Under the pieces are notes generated by a model, which saw only the letters and a list, made by a program, of their open reading frames with translations, was not told the origin of the DNA and made no database searches. From Bacillus sp. FJAT-42315 (GTDB lineage Bacteria > Bacillota > Bacilli > Bacillales > Domibacillaceae), in the NCBI RefSeq assembly GCF_002797375.1, contig NZ_KZ454941.1, positions 1,256,503-1,320,502 on the forward strand: a stretch of 64,000 nucleotides of DNA. The letters run 5' to 3'. This document shows positions 2,915 through 64,000 of this stretch, piece by piece. How positions within the stretch are numbered: position 1 is the stretch's first letter; every line of letters starts with the position of its first letter. The position numbers were made by a program, and so were the translations under genes.

Positions 2915-3830
2915 AACGATGAAACGATTGACGAGTTCTCCTGATTTTCAAACACGTTATGAAAACATGCGAAAAGAAATTTTAAATGATCCATCGATTC
3001 AACAATTTATTAAAGAGCATGAGCAAGAGATTTCATCAAATGTGATCAATAAAAACTTAATGAAATTGTATGAATATAAATCGCAAAGCTTTTCCTGTGA
3101 TAAATGCCCAAACCTTGATGGCTGTATCAATGTCGTGAAAGGCTTTGAACCGAAGCTCGTGTGGCGCCAGGGAGCTATTGATATTGATTACCATCGCTGT
3201 CGGAGTAAAATTCGTGACGACGAAAAACGCAAAAATGAGAAATTAATCGATAGCATCTACGTGCCCAAAGATATTTTACATGCGACGTTTACAAATTTAG
3301 ATCTTCAAGATCCAGATCGGTGGCAGGCAATTGAAACGGCGCAAAAATTTACAGAAGCGTATAAGAAAGATCAGCATACGAAAGGTCTTTATATTCACGG
3401 TTCGTTTGGCGTTGGTAAGTCATACTTACTCGGAGCAATTGCCAATGATTTGGCGGAAATAAATGTTTCCTCACTTATCGTCTATTTCCCAGAATTTATT
3501 CGGGAAATGAAGCAGTCTTTTAACGATCAATCGATGAATAGTAAGCTTGAGGTTGTGAAAAAAGCACCAGTGCTAATGCTTGACGATATCGGAGCGGAAT
3601 CTATGTCCAGCTGGATGCGTGACGATATTCTTGGGACGATTTTGCAATTTCGGATGCTAGAAGGGTTGCCTACTTTCTTTACGTCGAACTTTAGCTACTC
3701 TGAATTAGAGCACCATTTAACGTACTCGCAGCGTGGAGAAAAGGAAGAGTTGAAAGCGAAGCGAGTGATGGAGCGGATTCGATATTTAACGGTGCCAGTG
3801 GAAATGAAGGGTCAGAATCGTCGGAAATAA
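2898..3830 (+). CDS. dnaI: Primosomal protein DnaI (helicase loader)
   Basis: An AAA+ ATPase that loads the replicative helicase with DnaB and DnaD. The N-terminal third is a helicase-binding domain with a zinc site (CDKCPNLDGC near residues 67-76, then H-x-C near 99-101). The ATPase part shows Walker A (GSFGVGKS, about 169-176) and Walker B (VLMLDDIGAE, about 225-234). The 310-aa length is that of B. subtilis DnaI. The start lies inside the dnaB 3-prime end with an AGGTGAAACAAG ribosome site. The ytxB/ytxC genes that follow dnaI in B. subtilis are absent here. Confidence 0.95.
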   Translation: MKKIDETMKRLTSSPDFQTRYENMRKEILNDPSIQQFIKEHEQEISSNVINKNLMKLYEYKSQSFSCDKCPNLDGCINVVKGFEPKLVWRQGAIDIDYHRCRSKIRDDEKRKNEKLIDSIYVPKDILHATFTNLDLQDPDRWQAIETAQKFTEAYKKDQHTKGLYIHGSFGVGKSYLLGAIANDLAEINVSSLIVYFPEFIREMKQSFNDQSMNSKLEVVKKAPVLMLDDIGAESMSSWMRDDILGTILQFRMLEGLPTFFTSNFSYSELEHHLTYSQRGEKEELKAKRVMERIRYLTVPVEMKGQNRRK

Positions 3831-3843
3831 TGAACAAGCCCTA

Positions 3844-3872
3844 TTGATTTTCATGTAAGGAAGTTCTATAAT
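3844..3872 (+). promoter_or_regulatory. SigA-type promoter of thrS
   Basis: TTGATT and TATAAT with a 17-base spacer begin the T-box leader of thrS; the -10 is a perfect consensus match. Confidence 0.75.
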
Positions 3873-3879
3873 AACGTAC

Positions 3880-4150
3880 ATACATGATAAATATCGACAG
3901 GTTATGACGAGGACACGAGTCTTTTTTTACGGTTTTCAGAGAGGGAGAGCTAGGCTGAAACTTTCCTAACACGAAAAAAACACTTACCACCTCTGAACCA
4001 CGGCCGTGAACGCAAGCTTTGCTAGTAATGGACCGCCGGCAGCAGCCGTTATCTGAACTGGAGATTTCAACATTTTTTGTTGGAAAAGTAGGGTGGAATC
4101 GCGATTAAAACCTCGTCCCTTCATTAAATTGAAGGGGTGGGGTTTTTTTA
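3880..4150 (+). promoter_or_regulatory. Threonyl T-box leader of thrS
   Basis: The leader ends with the T-box sequence AGGGTGGAATCGCG (4090-4103) followed by the antiterminator/terminator switch. Stem I is closed by TTTTCAGAGAGG pairing with CCTCTGAA (about 3991-3998). ACC triplets, a threonine codon, lie just 5-prime of the closing strand (about 3986-3991), fitting a tRNA-Thr specifier. Uncharged tRNA-Thr would stabilise the antiterminator and permit thrS transcription. Confidence 0.93.
4111..4150 (+). terminator. T-box terminator of thrS leader
   Basis: A 13-bp stem (CCTCGTCCCTTCA with TGAAGGGGTGGGG, including G-T pairs) is followed by seven Ts. Confidence 0.88.
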
Positions 4151-6436: not shown

Positions 6437-6955
6437 ATTAGCAAAGATATGTTTGTAAACGAGGGAATTCGTTCCCGTGAAGTCCGTCTCATTGACCAAA
6501 ATGGAGAGCAGTTAGGAATTAAATCAAAATTCGATGCGCTCGAAATTGCTTCACGCGTTAATCTTGATCTTGTGCTTGTTGCCCCAAATGCGAAACCGCC
6601 AGTAGCTCGTATTATGGACTACGGGAAGTTCAAATTTGAACAGCAGAAGAAAGAGAAAGAAGCTCGTAAAAATCAAAAAATCATTAATCTTAAAGAAGTT
6701 CGTCTTAGCCCGACGATTGAAGAGCATGATTTTAGTACGAAACTTCGCAATGCCATCAAATTCCTTGAAAAAGGGGATAAAGTGAAAGCTTCAATCCGCT
6801 TCAAGGGACGTGCGATTACTCATAAGGAAATTGGACAACGCGTTCTTGAGCGTTTTTCAAAAGCTTGTGAGGAAGTAGCTACTGTTGAGACTAAACCAAA
6901 AATGGATGGTCGCAGTATGTTCTTAATCTTAGCACCTAAAAACGAAAAGCAATAA
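6437..6955 (+). CDS. infC: Translation initiation factor IF-3
   Basis: IF-3 binds the 30S subunit, checks initiator tRNA-start codon pairing and prevents premature 50S joining. I place the start at the ATT codon at 6437 (then Ser-Lys-Asp), 9 bases after GGAGG: infC genes characteristically use a rare AUU start, through which IF-3 controls its own synthesis. No ATG or GTG with a good ribosome site is available; the next ATG (6449) would drop conserved N-terminal residues. The product is 172 aa, with the N-terminal domain, the lysine-rich linker ([14 protein letters not shown]) and the C-terminal domain. Confidence 0.93.
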
Positions 6956-6974
6956 GTTTGAGGAGGAATTACAA

Positions 6975-7175
6975 ATGCCAAAAATGAAAACCCACCGCGG
7001 CTCAGCTAAGCGTTTCAAAAAGACAGGTTCTGGTAAATTAAAACGTTCTCATGGCTACACAAGTCACTTATTTGCCAACAAATCTACGAAACAAAAACGT
7101 AAGCTTCGCAAAGGAACGCTTGTATCTAAAGGCGATTTCAAACGCATTCGTCACATGTTAGACAACTTGAAGTAA
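6975..7175 (+). CDS. rpmI: 50S ribosomal protein L35
   Basis: A 66-aa, very basic protein of the large subunit with the conserved [15 protein letters not shown] start. It sits 19 bp after infC behind an AGGAGG site in the conserved infC-rpmI-rplT operon. Confidence 0.97.
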
Positions 7176-7205
7176 GACTAGGAACCATTATAGGAGGGAA
7201 ATATT

Positions 7206-7565
7206 ATGCCACGCGTAAAAGGCGGAACAGTAACTCGCAGACGTCGTAAAAAAGTTCTTAAATTAGCAAAAGGTTTTTTCGGTGCTAAACACCGTTTATA
7301 TAAAGTTGCAAACCAACAAGTAATGAAATCTTTACAATATGCTTACCGTGATCGTCGCCAGAAAAAACGTGACTTCCGTAAGCTTTGGATCACTCGTATC
7401 AACGCAGCAGCTCGCATGAACGGTCTTTCTTACAGCCGTTTAATGCACGGTTTAAAGCTTGCTGAAATCGAAGTGAACCGCAAAATGCTTGCTGACTTAG
7501 CAATTAGCGATGAAAAAGCATTTGCTCAATTAGCAGACGCTGCAAAAGCTCAATTAAACAAATAA
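7206..7565 (+). CDS. rplT: 50S ribosomal protein L20
   Basis: The 119-aa basic protein is needed early in 50S assembly and is also the repressor of its own operon through the infC leader. Standard length; conserved N-terminal RVKGG...RRRRKK and the RLMHGLK segment near residues 79-85 are present. Preceded by GGAGGG and followed at once by a terminator. Confidence 0.97.
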
Positions 7566-7575
7566 TTTTTGTTCA

Positions 7576-7608
7576 AAATCAGACCGCTTCGGCGCGTCTG
7601 ATTTTTTA
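7576..7608 (+). terminator. Terminator after rplT
   Basis: AAATCAGAC pairs with GTCTGATTT across a GC-rich loop containing CTTCGG, then a T-run. Confidence 0.85.
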
Positions 7609-7609
7609 T

Positions 7610-7740
7610 TTTGGGTAGAAAGTTGGGGACTTCGTAAAAGTGAGCTACGACTCAATAAAAAAGTCGTTAGATTCAGTAAAAAGCCAGAGCGAGTCAGTAA
7701 TAAAGTGAATCAACTTAGCAAAAGCCCAATGATTTCTGAA
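7610..7740 (+). repeat. Degenerate coding-like repeat in an intergenic gap
   Basis: Between the rplT terminator and the ysdA promoter the sequence repeats GA(C/T)TCA(A/G)TAAAAAAG-type units. Read forward it codes for SYDSIKKSLDSVKSQSESV, with no start codon or ribosome site. No gene is called here. Confidence 0.5.
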
Positions 7741-7783
7741 AAGCGAAATGTTTGATACAATAAATGCTGGGAGGAGATACAAT

Positions 7784-8032
7784 TTGTTCATTTATTTTGT
7801 TCTCATCAATGTCATTAGCTATGCGGTTATGGCAAATGATAAGAGGAAGGCGAAACGCGGAGCTTGGCGGACGAGTGAGTTCACGCTATGGTTGTTAGCA
7901 TTCACTGGTGGAGCGGTTGGCAGTTGGGTAGCGATGCAGACGCACCGGCATAAAACGAAGCATGCTTCCTTTAAATATGGGATGCCGATATTAGCAGTGA
8001 TCGACCTTGGATTGCTTGCGTATTTTTCATAA
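7784..8032 (+). CDS. DUF1294 family small membrane protein (YsdA-like)
   Basis: An 82-aa integral membrane protein with three hydrophobic segments (about 1-17, 37-50, 66-82) and a positively charged loop between. The arrangement LWLLAFTGGAVGSWVAMQTHRHKTKH is typical of DUF1294, whose function is unknown. The start is TTG at 7784, chosen because GGGAGGAG ends 7 bases before it; the upstream ATG at 7748 overlaps the probable -10 (TACAAT at about 7755). It occupies the place of B. subtilis ysdA after rplT. Confidence 0.85.
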   Translation: MFIYFVLINVISYAVMANDKRKAKRGAWRTSEFTLWLLAFTGGAVGSWVAMQTHRHKTKHASFKYGMPILAVIDLGLLAYFS

Positions 8033-8053
8033 AGAATAAGGAGAAATGTTACA

Positions 8054-14818: not shown

Positions 14819-15853
14819 GTGGAACAGCAATTAAAGAAATTACAAACAGAAGCGCTGGCTCAAATTGAAACAGCCGCAGACTTAAAACAGCTGAATGACA
14901 TTCGTGTCGCTTATTTAGGAAAAAAAGGACCTGTGACAGAAGTATTGAAAGGCATGGGGAAATTATCGGCGGAAGAGCGTCCGAAAATGGGGGCACTTGC
15001 CAATGAAGTACGTGGAGCGATTGCTTCAGCGATCGAAGCAAAGCAAACAACTTTAGAGCAACAAGCGATTCAAGAACAACTAGCAAAAGAAACAATCGAT
15101 ATTACGCTTCCAGGTCGTCCAGTGAAAACAGGCAATCACCATCCGTTAACACGAGTAGTCGAAGAAATTGAAGATTTATTTATCGGCATGGGCTATGCTG
15201 TTGCAGAAGGACCAGAAGTGGAAAAGGATTACTATAACTTTGAAGCATTGAACCTTCCGAAAGGTCATCCAGCACGCGATATGCAGGATTCTTTCTACAT
15301 CACAGAAGATATTTTACTTCGTACGCACACATCTCCCGTGCAAGCGCGCACGATGGAGAATAATACAGAAAAAGGCCCAGTGAAGATCATTTGTCCAGGA
15401 AAAGTATTCCGCCGCGACAATGACGATGCAACACATTCTCATCAATTTATGCAAATTGAAGGTCTTGTCGTTGACGAAAACATTAGCATGGGCGATCTAA
15501 AAGGAACGCTTCAAGCTTTTGTGAAAAAAATGTTCGGTGAAGATCGCGAAATTCGTTTGCGTCCAAGCTTCTTCCCATTCACTGAGCCATCAGTAGAAGT
15601 AGATGTCAGCTGTATGTGTGGTGGAAAAGGCTGTAATATTTGTAAGCAGACGGGCTGGATTGAAGTGTTAGGAGCAGGAATGGTACATCCGAACGTGCTT
15701 GAAATGGCTGGTTACGACTCGAAGAAATATACAGGCTTTGCATTCGGTATGGGAGCAGAACGAATTGCGATGCTGAAATATGGCATTGATGATATTCGTC
15801 TATTCTATACAGATGATTTACGCTTTTTAAAACAATTTTCGGTACATGAATAA
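14819..15853 (+). CDS. pheS: Phenylalanyl-tRNA synthetase alpha subunit
   Basis: Catalytic subunit of the alpha2-beta2 class IIc enzyme. The N-terminal coiled coil (about 1-85) binds tRNA. Class II motifs follow: motif 2 ([21 protein letters not shown] split near 190-210) and motif 3 ([10 protein letters not shown] near 308-317). A Cys cluster ([11 protein letters not shown]) lies near 260. Start is GTG 14819 with AAGGAGGAG upstream. Length 344 aa as in Bacillus. Confidence 0.96.
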
Positions 15854-15871
15854 TTAGGAGGGAAAATAACA

Positions 15872-18286
15872 ATGTTCGTTTCATATAAATGGCTGAGCGA
15901 GTACGTCGATCTTGGCGGAATGCCCGCAAAAGAATTAGCAGAGAAAATTACTCGTAGCGGAATTGAAGTAGAAGGAGTCGAGCACTTAGGCGAAGGCATT
16001 AAAAATGTCGTTGTCGGTCATGTGCTTGAGCGTGAACAGCATCCGAATGCTGATAAATTAAATAAATGTTTAGTCGATGTCGGTGAGGAAGAGCCGGTTC
16101 AAATTATTTGTGGTGCAGCTAACGTTGATAAAGGTCAAAAGGTCGTTGTTGCAAAAGTAGGCGCTGTCCTTCCTGGCAATTTCAAAATTAAAAAAGCAAA
16201 GCTTCGCGGTGAAGCTTCTCATGGAATGATTTGCTCGCTGCAAGAACTTGGCATTGAAAGCAAGCTAGTAGCAAAAGAATTTTCAGAAGGAATTTTCGTG
16301 TTCCCGAATGAAGTGACACCAGGAGAAGACGCTCTTGAGCAGTTGAACTTACATGATGAAGTGTTAGAGCTTGGGTTAACGCCAAACCGTTCTGACTGCT
16401 TAAGCATGCTAGGTGTTGCTTATGAAGTAGCAGCTATTCTTGGCACAAACGTCAAGCTTCCTGTGACAGACGTGCAAGAAGTAAGCGAAAAAGCAGAAGG
16501 GCATATCGACATTCGCATTGAAGCAAAGGAAGATAACCCAATTTATATCGCTCGTGTCGTTAAAAATGTCAAAATTGCTCCGTCTCCACTTTGGTTGCAA
16601 ACTCGCTTAATGGCAGCGGGCATTCGTCCACATAACAATGTTGTTGACATTACGAATTATATTTTATTAGAGTACGGTCAACCGCTTCATGCATTTGATT
16701 ATGATCGTTTAGGCTCAAAAGAAATCGTTGTTCGCCGCGCTCAAGAAGGCGAAAAAATTATTACATTGGATGAGGCAGAACGTACATTATCGGCTGAGCA
16801 TTTAGTGATTACAAACGGCCAAGAACCAGTCGCAATTGCTGGTGTAATGGGCGGAGCGAACTCTGAAGTGCAAGCAGATACGACAACGATTCTAATTGAA
16901 TCGGCTTATTTTGACGGTCAACGTGTTCGTCAAGCATCCAAAGATCACGGTCTTCGTTCAGAAGCAAGTGCTCGTTTTGAAAAAGGCGTGGACCCGAATC
17001 GCGTGCAAGCAGCTGCTGATCGCGCGGCTCAATTAATGGTCGAGCTAGCGGGTGGAGAAGTCCTTTCTGGTCGTGTTGTAACAGGAGAAATGTCTGCAGA
17101 GCCGAAAGTCGTTTCCGTTACGCTAGAAAAATTGAATCGTGTCCTCGGTACGGATTTACAAGTAGCCGAAGTGGAAGATATTTTCCGTCGTTTGCAGTTC
17201 GAAGTACAGACAGACAATAATGAATTCATCGTGACCGTTCCAACCCGTCGCGGTGACATCACGATCCCGGAAGACTTAGTCGAAGAAGTGGCGCGTATGT
17301 ACGGTTACGATCATTTGCCAACGACGCTTCCAACAGGTGAATCAAAGCCAGGTCGATTAACTGATTATCAATTAAAGCGTCGCGTCGTTCGCCGTTATTT
17401 AGAAGGGGCAGGCTTAAACCAAGCGATCACTTATTCTTTAACGAGTGAGAAGAAATCAACTCAATACGCGTTAGAAACTCGTCAGCCGGTTGCTTTAGCA
17501 ATGCCAATGAGTGAAGAGCGTGCGTTCTTACGCTTAAGCCTTGTTCCGCAATTGCTTGAAGTTGTTGCTTATAACAACGCACGTCAAATCGACTCATTAG
17601 CTCTTTATGAAGTAGGTTCTGTGTTCTTAAAAGAAGCCGAGGGTGAATTACCTGTTGAACGTGAGCATGTAGCTGGTGCAATTACTGGACTATGGGAAGA
17701 AAACGCTTGGCAAGGAGAAAAGAAAGCAGTCGATTTCTTCGTAGCTAAAGGTGTACTTGAAGGCTTATTCGCTCGTTTAGGCTTAGAGAAACGCATCGCC
17801 TATAAAAAAGCAGAGATCGAAGGCATGCATCCAGGACGTACAGCAGCCGTTGAATTAGATGGCCAATTCATCGGATTTGTCGGCCAAGTGCATCCGCAGC
17901 AAGCGAAAGATCTCGATGTAAAAGAAACGTACGTGTTTGAATTAAAGTTGAATGCCCTTCTTGGAGCGGAAAAAGAAGCGGTTGCTTACGAGCCGATTCC
18001 ACGTTTCCCATCGATTACTCGTGATATCGCACTCGTTGTCGATCGCCAAACAGAAGCAGGAGCACTGCAAGCAGTCATCGAGGAAGCGGGCGGTGACTTG
18101 CTGAAAGGAGTTCACGTATTTGATCTATACGAAGGCGAGCATATGGAGCCAGGTAAAAAATCCGTTGCTTTCACATTAACATACGTAAACCCAGCGAAAA
18201 CACTCACAGACGAAGAAGTAGTCAAAGTCCACAACGGCGTTCTTGAAGCATTAAAAGAAAAAGTTGGTGCTGAATTACGCAGCTAA
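15872..18286 (+). CDS. pheT: Phenylalanyl-tRNA synthetase beta subunit
   Basis: The 804-aa beta subunit holds the editing site that hydrolyses Tyr-tRNA-Phe and binds the tRNA. Domain order: N-terminal OB-type tRNA-binding domain (about 40-150), B3/B4 editing domain (about 210-400), B5 DNA-binding-like domain (about 405-475), catalytic-like core, and C-terminal anticodon-binding domain (from about 710, [14 protein letters not shown]). Lies 18 bp after pheS with a TTAGGAGGG ribosome site and is followed by a terminator. Confidence 0.96.
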
Positions 18287-59120: not shown

Positions 59121-59861
59121 ATGAGAGTTGACGGTAGAAATCATAATGAATTGCGTAAAGTACATATAGAAAAAGATTTTTTAAAGCATCCGGAAGGCTC
59201 TGTGCTTATTACAGTAGGAGACACACGAGTCATTTGTACAGCGAGTATAGAAGATAGAGTGCCGCCGTTTATGCGAGGAAGCGGAAAGGGATGGATTTCT
59301 GCTGAGTATTCGATGTTACCAAGAGCAACGGAGCAGCGTAATATTCGTGAATCGTCCAAAGGAAAAGTATCTGGACGAACGATGGAAATTCAACGTTTAA
59401 TTGGTCGGGCGTTGCGAGCGGTGGTGGACCTTGAAGCGATTGGTGAACGTACAGTTTGGGTTGATTGTGATGTGATTCAAGCGGATGGCGGCACGCGGAC
59501 AGCATCGATTACAGGTGCCTTTGTGGCGATGGCGATCGCTTTAGACCGTTTACAAAGAGAAAAAGAATTGCCGACTTTCCCGGTGACGAGCTTTTTGGCA
59601 GCGACAAGTGTTGGGGTCGTCAAAGATCATGGAGTCGTGTTAGACTTAAATTATATTGAGGATAGCCAAGCAGAAGTCGATATGAATGTCGTAATGACAG
59701 GAGCTGGCGAATTTGTTGAACTTCAAGGAACCGGAGAAGAAGCGACGTTTTCGATGAAGGATTTGCAAAGTTTGCTAGAGTCTGCTCAAATGGGTCTGAA
59801 GGAGCTGTTTGACATTCAAGCGTCTGTTCTTGGTGAGATTGCCGACAAAATCAGTAAGTAA
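59121..59861 (+). CDS. rph: Ribonuclease PH
   Basis: A phosphorolytic 3-prime exoribonuclease that trims tRNA precursors. The 246-aa protein starts [12 protein letters not shown], contains RPxE-like phosphate-binding arginines, GRGL-type [18 protein letters not shown] and [19 protein letters not shown]. Length as usual for the family; it heads rph-rdgB-ysnB. Confidence 0.95.
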
Positions 59862-59876
59862 AAAAGGAGACCCCCG

Positions 59877-60485
59877 ATGGACACAGTCATTATCGCCACA
59901 AAAAACAAAGGAAAAGCGAAGGAGTTCGCTGAGATGTTTGCTTCTTTCGAAATGAAGGTTGAGACGTTGCTCGATTATCCGGAGTATGCCGATGTAGAAG
60001 AAACAGGGGAAACGTTTGAGGAAAATGCGATCTTAAAGGCAGAGGAGATCTGTCGGTTAACAGGCCGTCTCGTTATTGCTGATGATTCTGGCTTAATGAT
60101 CGATGCGTTAGATGGTCGCCCTGGCGTCTATTCAGCTAGGTATGCAGGAGAAGAGAAAAGCGATGAGGCGAACATTCAAAAAGTGCTGAAGGAGCTTCAC
60201 GGTGTTGCTAGCGACAAACGGACGGCTCGCTTTTATTGTGCTTTAGCCATTGCCATGCCCGGGAAGGAAACAGCAACAGTAGCTGGCACATGTGAAGGTA
60301 AAATTACAGAAGAAAAACAAGGAACGAATGGCTTCGGCTACGATCCGATCTTTTATGTGGAGTCGTTTGAAGCGACGATGGCGGAACTTGCACCTGAAAC
60401 GAAAAACAGCATTAGCCACCGTGGCAATGCATTGAACAAATTAAAAGAACTTTTACCTGCTTTGCTTGAGGGTGCAATGAAATGA
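59877..60485 (+). CDS. rdgB: dITP/XTP pyrophosphatase (RdgB/HAM1 family)
   Basis: Removes non-canonical purine NTPs. The 202-aa protein starts [14 protein letters not shown], has the active-site [13 protein letters not shown] and the [11 protein letters not shown] and SHRGNAL segments. It is 15 bp after rph and overlaps the next gene by 4 bp. Confidence 0.95.
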
Positions 60486-60988
60486 AAGTATTAATCGTCA
60501 GTGATAGTCATGGCTGGAGCGAAGTGCTACAACAGTTAAAAGAGCGATATGAGGATCAAGTCGATGCGATGATCCATTGCGGCGATTCGGAGCTGTCAGC
60601 GAATGACCCAGCGGTGGAAGGATATTTTATCGTGCGTGGAAATTGTGATACCGAAAATCAATTTCCGTATGATATTATTGAAGGTGTAGAAGGAAAGCGA
60701 ATTTTCGTCACACACGGACATCGTTATAATATTAAAATGTCTTTAATGAATTTGATGTATAAAGCGAAGGAATATGCAGCCGACTTTGTGTTCTTCGGTC
60801 ACTCGCATCTCGTTGGAGCGGAGCGCATCGATGGCACAGTATTCGTCAATCCAGGTAGCATCTCCTTCCCTCGTGGACGTAAAGAAAAAACATATGCTAT
60901 CCTTGAAGTCGATCACGACATGACGACGATCTGTTTTTATGACGAAACGCATCAAGAACTGGACTCGCTGCGACAAGTATTTCAATGA
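60482..60988 (+). CDS. Metallophosphoesterase, YfcE/MJ0936 family (YsnB-like)
   Basis: A 168-aa phosphodiesterase. Metal ligands are visible: D and H in VSDSHGW, D in HCGDSE, N in RGNCD, and H in VTHGHRYN and GHSH. The ATG overlaps the rdgB stop (ATGA). Cellular substrate unknown. Ends at a stable hairpin (60996-61022) and marks the last gene of core synteny. Confidence 0.9.
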
Positions 60989-61096: not shown

Positions 61097-61140
61097 AATA
61101 AATGTCTTCAAGATAAATAAATAAAAAACAAATAAAACGT

Positions 61141-61214
<74 letters not shown>

Positions 61215-61244
61215 TAATTGAAATCACGCTAAATAGGCGTCATT

Positions 61245-61334
61245 AAAGCCTTCTAACGCGTTGAATGAATCGGTCAATGATACGGTCAACAAATCGTATT
61301 CAGCCGGTTAATCAACGAGTTAGGGGGCTTTTTT
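61245..61334 (+). terminator. Large branched hairpin with T-run after the tRNA
   Basis: Outer helices AAAGCC/GGCTTT, CTAAC/GTTAG and GTTGA/TCAAC stack with small mismatches; an inner ATACG/CGTAT hairpin sits within. TTTTTT follows. It may end the tRNA transcript; its size is unusual for that. Confidence 0.55.
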
Positions 61335-61337
61335 GTT

Positions 61338-61409
61338 ATGTCTAAAAAACGAGCAGCACTCACGGTTGAACAGGCGTTAAAGAAAGGTAGCCCATACATC
61401 AAATTATAG
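61338..61409 (+). pseudogene. Short reading frame, possible integrase remnant
   Basis: Begins ATG 61338 and ends at TAG 61409: MSKKRAALTVEQALKKGSPY plus three residues. The beginning is of the type seen at the N-terminus of some tyrosine recombinases, and it lies just downstream of a tRNA, where integrase genes sit. No ribosome site is clear (T-run upstream). I regard it as a degraded fragment, at low confidence. Confidence 0.3.
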
Positions 61410-61553
61410 ATGTTGTTTCGTAGCTGAATCCATTGCTACAACACTTTAAAAAATTTGAAATAGGAAATTAAATTAACTTGAAACTTTTTCTATATTTATC
61501 AAGTATAATTAATAGTGGATAATTTAAATAGGAATCAGATATGAGGTGTTCAG
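61410..61553 (+). promoter_or_regulatory. A/T-rich upstream region of the Argonaute gene
   Basis: The region is strongly A/T-rich. TATAAT occurs at about 61502-61507 with no good -35 at 17 bases; TTGAAA is 20 bases away. GAGGTG, 5 bases before ATG 61554, is the ribosome site. No inverted repeats or CRISPR-like units. Confidence 0.45.
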
Positions 61554-63773
61554 ATGGAAGCATATATTACTGAAGTTACAGCTACTCAATGGGCCAATGA
61601 AATATCATTGCACGTCTATGAATTTCCGGTAGAAGATCCAACAAAAAAATATGAGGGTGCCTCAATGATTTGTAAAGCCTGGAGGCGTGCTAATGATTAT
61701 ATGGCTGTAGCTTTTAATCAAAGTACAATTGTTACTTTTGAACCGGTTAACAGTTACGCTGGATTTGAACCACTATCTTATGAAATAAAGACAATAAACC
61801 CTAACAATCCATTTGAAACAAGACTACTTGAAAGACTAATTAAAGAAAGTCTACTAGCAGTAGGTCAAAAACAATTAAAAATGAAGCGTGCAGGTTCTGA
61901 CTTACAAGAATGGAATCCTAAAAAAGTTGGGAATATCTTAATCTATCCTGCATTATCTTTTCATATAAATATATTAGCTAATAGTATCCATATTGGTTTT
62001 CACTTAACGCATAAGTTTGAATATGAACATACATTGCAACAAATGATTGAGCGTGGTGAAGTGATTGAACCAGGCTTAAAAGTACTACATAGTGATATTC
62101 GAAATAACTATACATATGAAGTAGAACAAATAGCCCCGTATTCAGTGATGGAATATTGCCCTAAGTTAAAGAAGTCAATTTATCAATATTATAATGCAAA
62201 AGGTGATACGAGGGTAATAGAGGCATTGCATGATGGCGTGAAAGTTATTTATGCAAAGCCAATTTATGGAGATAGTTTAAGCTATGCTGCAACCGTATTA
62301 AAGCCCTTGTGTTCATTTGAAACAATGAAGTCATTTGAAACAAAAAAGGTAATGGACATTTTAAAAATGAAGCCAGATGAGCGTATGAAAAAACAGTTAC
62401 GTCAGGCGATGAATCTTTTAAACGTTTATCCATACTTAACATTTGAAAAAAATCCATTTCTTATTGAAGCGAACAATTATGAACTTTATCAAATACAGGA
62501 TCCTAAAATCTTTATGGACAGGTCTTACTTTAAGCCTTTACATGGTATGAAAAATGGGAAGCTATTTAAAAGTGGAACAATTAGATTGTCGATATTTATG
62601 GATGAAGCAATAGAGAAAAAGTTAGGAATTTCTAAAGCTCTTGTATTTCGTTTTATTAAAATACTTCAACAGTTTGCAAAACAGCAAGGTGTAACACTGG
62701 AAATTAGTCATAAGACGAGGGAAGTGAAGGAGAAATTTACTGAAGAGTTTTTCCAACAATTCTCTTGGGAGATTCGAGAATTAGAGTCGATTTTTATAGA
62801 TTCAACCGTTTTGGCAATTATTACAGATGAACATCTAACTAAATTACCAATCAAGGTTTACGATGCCTTCAAAAGGCAATTTGGTGGCAAATGGGACATT
62901 TCAACACAAGTAATAACAGAAAACAGCTTAAAATTGTTCCAACAATTATTGAAAAGAAATCAGTTAGACTTGTTTAATCCAAATGATGAGGTGGTTTGTC
63001 AGGAGGTTGCGAATCGAATTAAAAGCGATAATTTGTTTTACACTATTAATAATATTCTTCTTGGTGTATATGTTAAGAGTGGTATGCAGCCGTGGGTGCT
63101 CGACGAAAGAACACATTCAGATTGCTTTATCGGGCTAGATGTAAGTCATGAAGATGGGAAAAGCACAGCAGGAATTATGAACGTTATTGGTAGCAACGGT
63201 CACTTGCTAAAACAATCTGCTATTCATGGGGCGTTAGCTGGTGAAAAAATTGATACGAAAACATTAGAAGAGATATTAATGGATGTCCTATTTACTTATA
63301 AGAATCAATTTGGTGATTTTCCAAAGCATGTAACTATTCATAGAGATGGAAAGTGGAATGAAGACACAGAATTTGTAGATAAATTATTTAAAGCTCGCGG
63401 TGTTGCATATGACATCATAGAGGTAATTAAGAAATCAAATCGACGTATGGCTTTTTATAATGAAACAACTAAGAAATTTGAAACGAGACAAGGTGTATAT
63501 TATAAGCGTGAAAAGGAAGCGTTTTTATGTGCAACCGATCCTAGAGAGAACATAGGTATGGCTCAACCGATAAAAATTGTGCAGTATACAAAAACATTAA
63601 CATTTGAACAACTAATTGAAGATGTTTATCGCCTTTCATTTATGCATATTCATTCACTGAACAAAATGCGTTTACCAGCAACAATTCATTATGCAGATTT
63701 AAGTTCAACAGCATATCAAAGAGGTCAGGTAGCACCGAGAACTACTAATGTTACGCATTTGCCGTTTGTGTAA
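61554..63773 (+). CDS. Prokaryotic Argonaute, long-A type, catalytically complete
   Basis: A 739-aa guide-dependent nuclease in the N-L1-PAZ-L2-MID-PIWI order; rough bounds: N 1-110, PAZ about 150-270, MID about 360-500, PIWI about 500-739. The DEDX catalytic tetrad is complete: D529 (FIGLDVSHED), E564 (AGEKIDTKTL), D598 (IHRDGKW) and D715 (IHYADLSS). In the MID, GGKWDISTQVITEN carries Lys/Gln residues of the 5-prime-phosphate pocket. The protein ends HLPFV, as long pAgos do when the C-terminus enters the guide pocket. From memory it closely resembles KmAgo of Kurthia massiliensis, which uses DNA or RNA guides at moderate temperature. Such proteins can act in plasmid or phage defence. The gene is next to a tRNA and looks more A/T-rich than the core genes; it follows the integration pattern of islands. 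Confidence 0.95.
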   Translation: MEAYITEVTATQWANEISLHVYEFPVEDPTKKYEGASMICKAWRRANDYMAVAFNQSTIVTFEPVNSYAGFEPLSYEIKTINPNNPFETRLLERLIKESLLAVGQKQLKMKRAGSDLQEWNPKKVGNILIYPALSFHINILANSIHIGFHLTHKFEYEHTLQQMIERGEVIEPGLKVLHSDIRNNYTYEVEQIAPYSVMEYCPKLKKSIYQYYNAKGDTRVIEALHDGVKVIYAKPIYGDSLSYAATVLKPLCSFETMKSFETKKVMDILKMKPDERMKKQLRQAMNLLNVYPYLTFEKNPFLIEANNYELYQIQDPKIFMDRSYFKPLHGMKNGKLFKSGTIRLSIFMDEAIEKKLGISKALVFRFIKILQQFAKQQGVTLEISHKTREVKEKFTEEFFQQFSWEIRELESIFIDSTVLAIITDEHLTKLPIKVYDAFKRQFGGKWDISTQVITENSLKLFQQLLKRNQLDLFNPNDEVVCQEVANRIKSDNLFYTINNILLGVYVKSGMQPWVLDERTHSDCFIGLDVSHEDGKSTAGIMNVIGSNGHLLKQSAIHGALAGEKIDTKTLEEILMDVLFTYKNQFGDFPKHVTIHRDGKWNEDTEFVDKLFKARGVAYDIIEVIKKSNRRMAFYNETTKKFETRQGVYYKREKEAFLCATDPRENIGMAQPIKIVQYTKTLTFEQLIEDVYRLSFMHIHSLNKMRLPATIHYADLSSTAYQRGQVAPRTTNVTHLPFV

Positions 63774-63796
63774 CTAGTGAAAAGATGGGGAGAAAA

Positions 63797-64000
63797 ATGC
63801 GCGGTGTAAAATATCTAAAGTTACAAGAATTTTTAAAAAGCAATAAAACAGAAACGATTACCCTATCTTTTCGAAATATTGAAGTGGTTTTAGGTTTTAC
63901 TTTACCACAATCTGCTTATCGACATGTAGAGCATGGTGGAGTAATGATGTCACATATTCACATGCCCATGCATGGCTCGATGTTGGCTTTAAAACTGAAA
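63797..64000 (+). pseudogene. DUF7662-like small protein, frame-disrupted and truncated by window end
   Basis: Starts ATG 63797 behind GGGGAG, 23 bp after the Argonaute stop, so probably the same transcript. Residues 1-43 (MRGVKYLKLQEFLK... to LPQSAYRH) match the start of DUF7662 proteins. From 63926 the frame reads VEHGGVMMSH, unlike the family, while the frame two bases on (from 63928) reads RAWWSNDVTYSHAHAWLDVG, which is the conserved family core. A net +2 or -1 indel therefore lies near 63921-63928. It may be a true pseudogene, a sequencing error or, less likely, a frameshifting gene. The family name is from memory; function unknown. The gene continues beyond the window. Confidence 0.65.

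Follow-up and report, generated by a model that had tools for sequence, protein, structure and literature searches.

The right end of the 64,000-nucleotide stretch of DNA analysed here (the window; C1:1256503-1320502 of the host genome) carries a prokaryotic Argonaute (pAgo) gene next to tRNA-Arg. Does this gene encode an active guide-directed nuclease, would that nuclease work alone or with a partner, and what kind of site does the gene occupy? We approached these questions by comparing the protein, its neighbouring genes and its genomic site with those of related genomes (Table 1).

Table 1. Features of the Argonaute locus and of related loci; positions are those of the window unless a locus (L) is named.
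Feature	Position	Strand	Basis
KmAgo-clade long-A prokaryotic Argonaute, 739 aa	61554..63773	+	open frame, KmAgo 8xhs match, tree
Catalytic Asp529 codon (KmAgo D527)	63138..63140	+	KmAgo alignment
Catalytic Glu564 codon (KmAgo E562)	63243..63245	+	KmAgo alignment
Catalytic Asp598 codon (KmAgo D596)	63345..63347	+	KmAgo alignment
Catalytic Asp715 codon (KmAgo D713)	63696..63698	+	KmAgo alignment
MID 5'-end pocket stretch, Y436 to K508 (Y436, K440, Q452, K508)	62859..63077	+	conserved residues
Left core flank: rph, rdgB/Ham1, yfcE-type phosphoesterase	59121..60988	+	Pfam Ham1p_like, Metallophos_2
tRNA-Arg (UCU), intact, left edge of variable site	61140..61215	+	ARAGORN; Rfam RF00005 67.3 bits in L002
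Window part of ~3.0 kb low-GC insert (to ~64254, beyond the window)	61227..64000	+	blastn edges versus G003
Broken DUF7662-like gene start (frame on to 64066)	63785..64000	+	PF24698 parts in different frames
~171-aa family members	L026 10187-10702; L027 7974-8489; L028 11785-12306; L002 4566-4814; L041
Rpn/PDDEXK_2-type genes	L017 8984-10030; L018 12089-13087; L028 10316-11167; L027 6575-7411, 12558-13436

The Argonaute protein and its relatives

The Argonaute (Ago) gene is a single open frame running from ATG to TAA, and it is the sole match of its kind in the host genome (3.71 Mb, two contigs) at E <=0.001. When the protein was searched against the sequences of solved structures, KmAgo of Kurthia massiliensis (PDB 8xhs, with six further entries) was the top match (E 4e-245): residues 1-739 aligned end to end with KmAgo residues 1-737, with single-residue gaps only and through the final residue, in agreement with the original prediction of a full-length Argonaute that closely resembles KmAgo and keeps its C-terminus. 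The alignment covers a full-length N-PAZ-MID-PIWI organisation, in which Pfam recognised Piwi only (E 8e-20) and the N, PAZ and MID domains were assigned via KmAgo. PADLOC called the protein pAgo (E 3e-274), and its one NCBIfam match stayed far under the cut-off (63.7 versus 700 bits). Judged by its sequence, the window protein is a complete bacterial Argonaute of the already known KmAgo family, and by itself it opens no new question.

The accessible part of PMC11385924 gives the catalytic tetrad of KmAgo as D527, E562, D596 and D713 (we did not find it in the accessible part of PMC11421335), and long-A pAgos are defined in the accessible part of PMC11442185 by a complete DEDX tetrad in PIWI. 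The window protein has such a tetrad: D529, E564, D598 and D715, the residues named in the original prediction, fall on the four KmAgo residues, none of them outside the active site, and none of the four varies among the 18 aligned Ago proteins, the window's included. This alignment took in 18 of the 20 Ago proteins from the loci compared below and left out those of L084 and L091, where Ago lies in two pieces in the frame calls, although in another search the open frames measured 717 and 555 aa. The MID pocket, which had also been predicted to be intact, has the same residues as KmAgo, as Y436, K440, Q452 and K508 (KmAgo Y434, K438, Q450 and K506) are again invariant in 18/18 proteins; by analogy with other pAgos, we take these residues to bind the guide 5' end.

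Identity to the window protein is 76% over the full length for the Rummeliibacillus suwonensis protein (presumed RsuAgo), 70% for that of G008, 35% for that of G001 and 50.2% for KmAgo (737 positions). A maximum-likelihood tree with 19 rows united the window protein, RsuAgo, the G008 protein and KmAgo in one clade (100/100) apart from other pAgos, the branching among the first three being weakly supported (83/17). RsuAgo (WP_146547607.1) shares with the window protein the tetrad, the pocket and the C-terminus; we equated it with locus L004 10001-12223 by species and by the catalytic residues at D530 and D599, which are the window D529 and D598 with positions shifted by one. Among other long-A proteins, CpAgo (9jh7; E 4e-34) and the Argonaute of PDB 6qzk (E 1e-27), which we take to be CbAgo, matched in the PIWI part, with the match confined to the C-terminal part of the protein.

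Ago was found in 3/24 genomes of the family, in 6/397 of the order (E <=1e-20) and in 17/398 of the class (E <=1e-30), three overlapping sets in each of which the host is counted, and it is absent from the four other genomes of the genus. Its distribution is patchy. Plasmid and phage origins were both considered and set aside: the best plasmid place (Pontibacillus) reached 29% over 99% and the one phage record 25% over 74%, neither of them close, among records that may omit those of the host itself.

Predicted activity and function

As described in the accessible part of PMC8945025, four KmAgo-like enzymes were assayed, of which RsuAgo proved broad, BsAgo and DeAgo cut DNA only, and with 5'-P DNA guides only, and PmAgo, with its complete tetrad, showed no activity. 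According to the same part, RsuAgo has nuclease activity in vitro, cleaving its targets between guide positions 10 and 11, and its D530A/D599A double mutant is inactive; against DNA the enzyme works with DNA guides, whether 5'-P or 5'-OH, and also, slowly, with RNA guides, and it cuts RNA with 5'-P DNA guides. Guided DNA cleavage by the window protein is well supported by homology because RsuAgo is active in vitro, and DNA-guided DNA cleavage is a safe prediction, whereas homology gives RNA targets and RNA guides less backing; judging from RsuAgo and KmAgo, guide-directed cleavage would take place at mesophilic temperature. The activity of the window protein, as read from its residues, is likely but not certain, since the inactive PmAgo means that a complete tetrad is no guarantee of activity.

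We consider it highly probable that the gene encodes a horizontally acquired, catalytically active, stand-alone long-A Argonaute of the KmAgo clade that would serve in DNA-guided interference against invaders. In the mechanism that we propose, the protein would load short 5'-phosphorylated single-stranded DNA guides derived from replicating or degraded DNA, the guides would pair with complementary invader DNA, e.g. of plasmids or phage, and the DEDD site would cut the target opposite guide positions 10-11. The protein would do so alone, without a partner, and its gene would occupy a small slot for mobile or defence genes between tRNA-Arg and the core genes. For the defence role and the origin of the guides, this proposal follows what is presumed of pAgos generally.

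The same enzyme may have the broad repertoire of KmAgo and RsuAgo, taking RNA targets and RNA guides and acting on transcripts as well as on DNA, and here the balance tips neither way. RsuAgo, the nearest characterised relative, accepts RNA in both roles, and KmAgo takes guides of either kind, DNA or RNA, against targets of either kind, whereas BsAgo and DeAgo, which are also about 50% identical to KmAgo, are without RNA cleavage, and RNA-guided cutting is the slowest of the RsuAgo reactions (PMC8945025, accessible part). The window protein could be BsAgo or DeAgo itself, or close kin of theirs. Its tetrad and pocket residues are identical to those of KmAgo, but half of its residues differ; the guide and target range of KmAgo is not transferable to it as such. 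For the window protein we rate RNA activity as about even and the use of RNA guides as possible. There is demand for active Argonautes from mesophiles as programmable tools that cut DNA and RNA, and when PMC8945025 was published few had been described as acting on RNA (PMC8945025, accessible part); with its 76% identity to RsuAgo and 50% to KmAgo, the window protein is a useful natural comparison for identifying the residues that decide guide and target choice.

Neighbouring genes and candidate partners

We looked for partners by clustering the frames that lie up to 6 kb from Ago in 20 Ago loci (the window, R. suwonensis, five further loci at order level and 13 at class level). No partner family was general to these loci, the widest neighbour cluster (helicase/restriction-type proteins) reaching 5/20. 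The genes around the window Ago include no helper nuclease, SIR2 or TIR gene, as the sequence had first suggested for the upstream side, and the locus lacks the combination of an inactive PIWI with an adjacent effector gene that marks short and long-B effector systems, the tetrad being complete. The RsuAgo gene has genes for a type III restriction enzyme, SIR2 and HerA beside it, which favours the proposed interference role, whereas the window Ago stands alone after tRNA-Arg. The window Ago is probably a stand-alone DNA-interference enzyme.

A family of ~171-aa proteins lies within 2 kb of Ago in 4/20 loci: 64 bp upstream of Ago in G142 and G168, 1.6 kb downstream in G343 and, as a truncated copy, 0.3 kb downstream in the window genome (L002; 46% over 50 aa, profile E 1e-14). 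Members had no match in Pfam (three tested, the fragment included), NCBIfam (two), PHROGs (three) or PADLOC (two) at the thresholds applied. The family was detected in 34/397 genomes of the order (E <=0.001), and in 4/6 Ago genomes versus 30/391 others (one-sided Fisher p 6e-4, with the counts of two surveys taken as the same 397 genomes, kinship uncorrected and the family picked after the loci had been seen). Its closeness to Ago and its enrichment in Ago genomes would fit an accessory of these Argonautes that is truncated here, in a system that needs or had a partner and has now half lost it. We hold this to be very unlikely, as the family is absent from 16/20 Ago loci, including the one in R. 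suwonensis, whose Ago needs no partner to be active in vitro, and as Ago was not matched (E <=1e-20) in 30 of the 34 genomes that carry the family. The family is found, too, between type I restriction-modification (R-M) genes (L038) and, in the window's own genome, beside an HEC-05 candidate defence gene (L041). Moreover, the association counts are not independent: G142 is nearly identical to G168, members of the family are frequent in f13, and this family was chosen post hoc. On a cautious reading, shared residence in defence islands explains the presence of the ~171-aa family near Ago, and the window Argonaute would act alone.

A nuclease of the Rpn type was also considered as a partner and rejected: none lies near the window Ago, and two pieces sit ~545 kb away in the window genome. 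Across the Ago loci, Rpn/PDDEXK_2-type genes occur near Ago in at least 4/20 (two clusters of two), one Rpn type in G008 and G001 and a second in G343 and G168. G008 and G001 gave only two Rpn-type matches each. Literature searches for Argonautes with Rpn nucleases and for KmAgo structures found no paper.

The variable site next to tRNA-Arg

The gene order around Ago is rph, rdgB, yfcE-type, tRNA-Arg, Ago, the DUF7662-like frame, a small frame and a CsxC/DUF7852-type gene, followed by a TPR gene, tig, clpX, a lon-type gene, ysxC, hemA, hemC and a hemD-type gene (the name rph is presumed, as are the names from clpX on, which follow from reading and from the Bacillus gene order). Core gene order had been thought to end after tRNA-Arg. 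It does not: the TPR, tig, clpX and lon-type genes lie past the window edge, the CsxC-type gene starting 0.8 kb and the TPR gene 1.7 kb from the Ago stop, and an end of core order at tRNA-Arg was accordingly rejected.

Compared with G003, the window genome is ~95% identical until 11 bases past tRNA-Arg, where the blastn matches stop (L002 1729), and again from L002 4758, where they return; in the four other genomes of the genus, this slot contains nothing that matches the intervening 3.0 kb insert with Ago, and the GC content of the insert is 33.6% versus 41% on both sides. The patchy distribution and the low GC support horizontal acquisition. Directly after Ago comes a broken DUF7662-like gene that runs on to L002 4569 (one frame matches positions 1-37 of PF24698, E 2.6e-5, and a different frame positions 38-68, E 1.9e-4, both under the curated cut-off of 26 bits), and then the truncated small frame of the ~171-aa family. 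Since these two small genes are broken, the insert is, by its reading frames, partly decayed, with the Ago frame intact. This decay would fit an Argonaute that is a relic, or one that serves host DNA metabolism (e.g. chromosome resolution after replication) and not defence, and a part in replication has been reported for some pAgos. Either is unlikely here, however, as the frame is unbroken, as the residues of the catalytic site and the pocket are all kept, and as the distribution is patchy, unlike that of a housekeeping gene. We keep to an acquired interference enzyme as the preferred reading.

On the plus strand from tRNA-Arg to the CsxC-type gene, no frame other than Ago exceeds 93 aa and none is integrase-like by reading, and a search of L002 for a second copy of the tRNA-Arg 3' end (38 nt) gave 22/38 matches at best. 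The site thus shows neither an integrase nor a duplicated tRNA 3' end, two marks of a tRNA-integrated island, and shows a third, different content at the same tRNA. As for the mobile defence island of the original prediction, the variable, tRNA-linked, low-GC site stands, but a sizeable island is not supported (~3 kb, without an integrase frame or tRNA repeat).

The TPR gene is present in 5/5 genomes of the genus, and the CsxC-type gene is its neighbour in three of them (G000, G003 and G004), whereas G002 and G005 have no such gene next to it. The slot holds Ago in G000, the window genome; an ISL3 transposase piece and a zinc-finger repeat protein in G003; a TetR regulator and a hydrolase (both named by reading) and a homing-endonuclease gene in G002; a type I R-M system with a resolvase in G004; and only short frames, over ~5 kb, in G005. 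Small pieces are common to the G002, G003 and G004 slots, among them remnants of the intron and the endonuclease in G002 and G004. These observations support a hot spot adjoining tRNA-Arg rather than a large island. It would be a long shot to read the hot spot as swapping Ago, R-M and intron-homing endonuclease genes, with the ~171-aa family as a real functional partner of long-A Argonautes with catalytic activity that is here a fragment.

In 2/5 genomes of the genus, tRNA-Arg(UCU) is split in the anticodon loop by a group I intron of ~300 nt, at L014 ~7729-8038 (-) in G002 and at L015 ~3668-3975 (+) in G004. The two introns match Rfam RF00028 with 30.3 and 23.1 bits (E 5e-6 and 9e-4), short of the gathering score of 50, and nothing matching their DNA occurs in the window genome, G003 or G005; a literature search on group I introns, tRNA-Arg and homing endonucleases found nothing relevant. 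Near the introns (L014 ~6810-7600 and L015 ~15360-16000), the intron 3' end and the tRNA 3' exon occur in additional copies, accompanied by broken or interrupted PDDEXK_5 (PF11645) homing-endonuclease genes. Similar short inverted-repeat insertions interrupt these genes at L014 ~7300-7450 and L015 ~15730-15885, and, judged by eye, they resemble the non-coding end of an IS605/TnpB-type element. In L015, the type I R-M system lies between two exon copies, as if intron homing sites had gathered cargo. Another spot linked to an RNA gene is seen in G008 (L017 7132-12534), where Ago starts ~2.8 kb past tmRNA and the interval holds an Rpn-type gene and a fragment with weak likeness to Fic (E 0.012).
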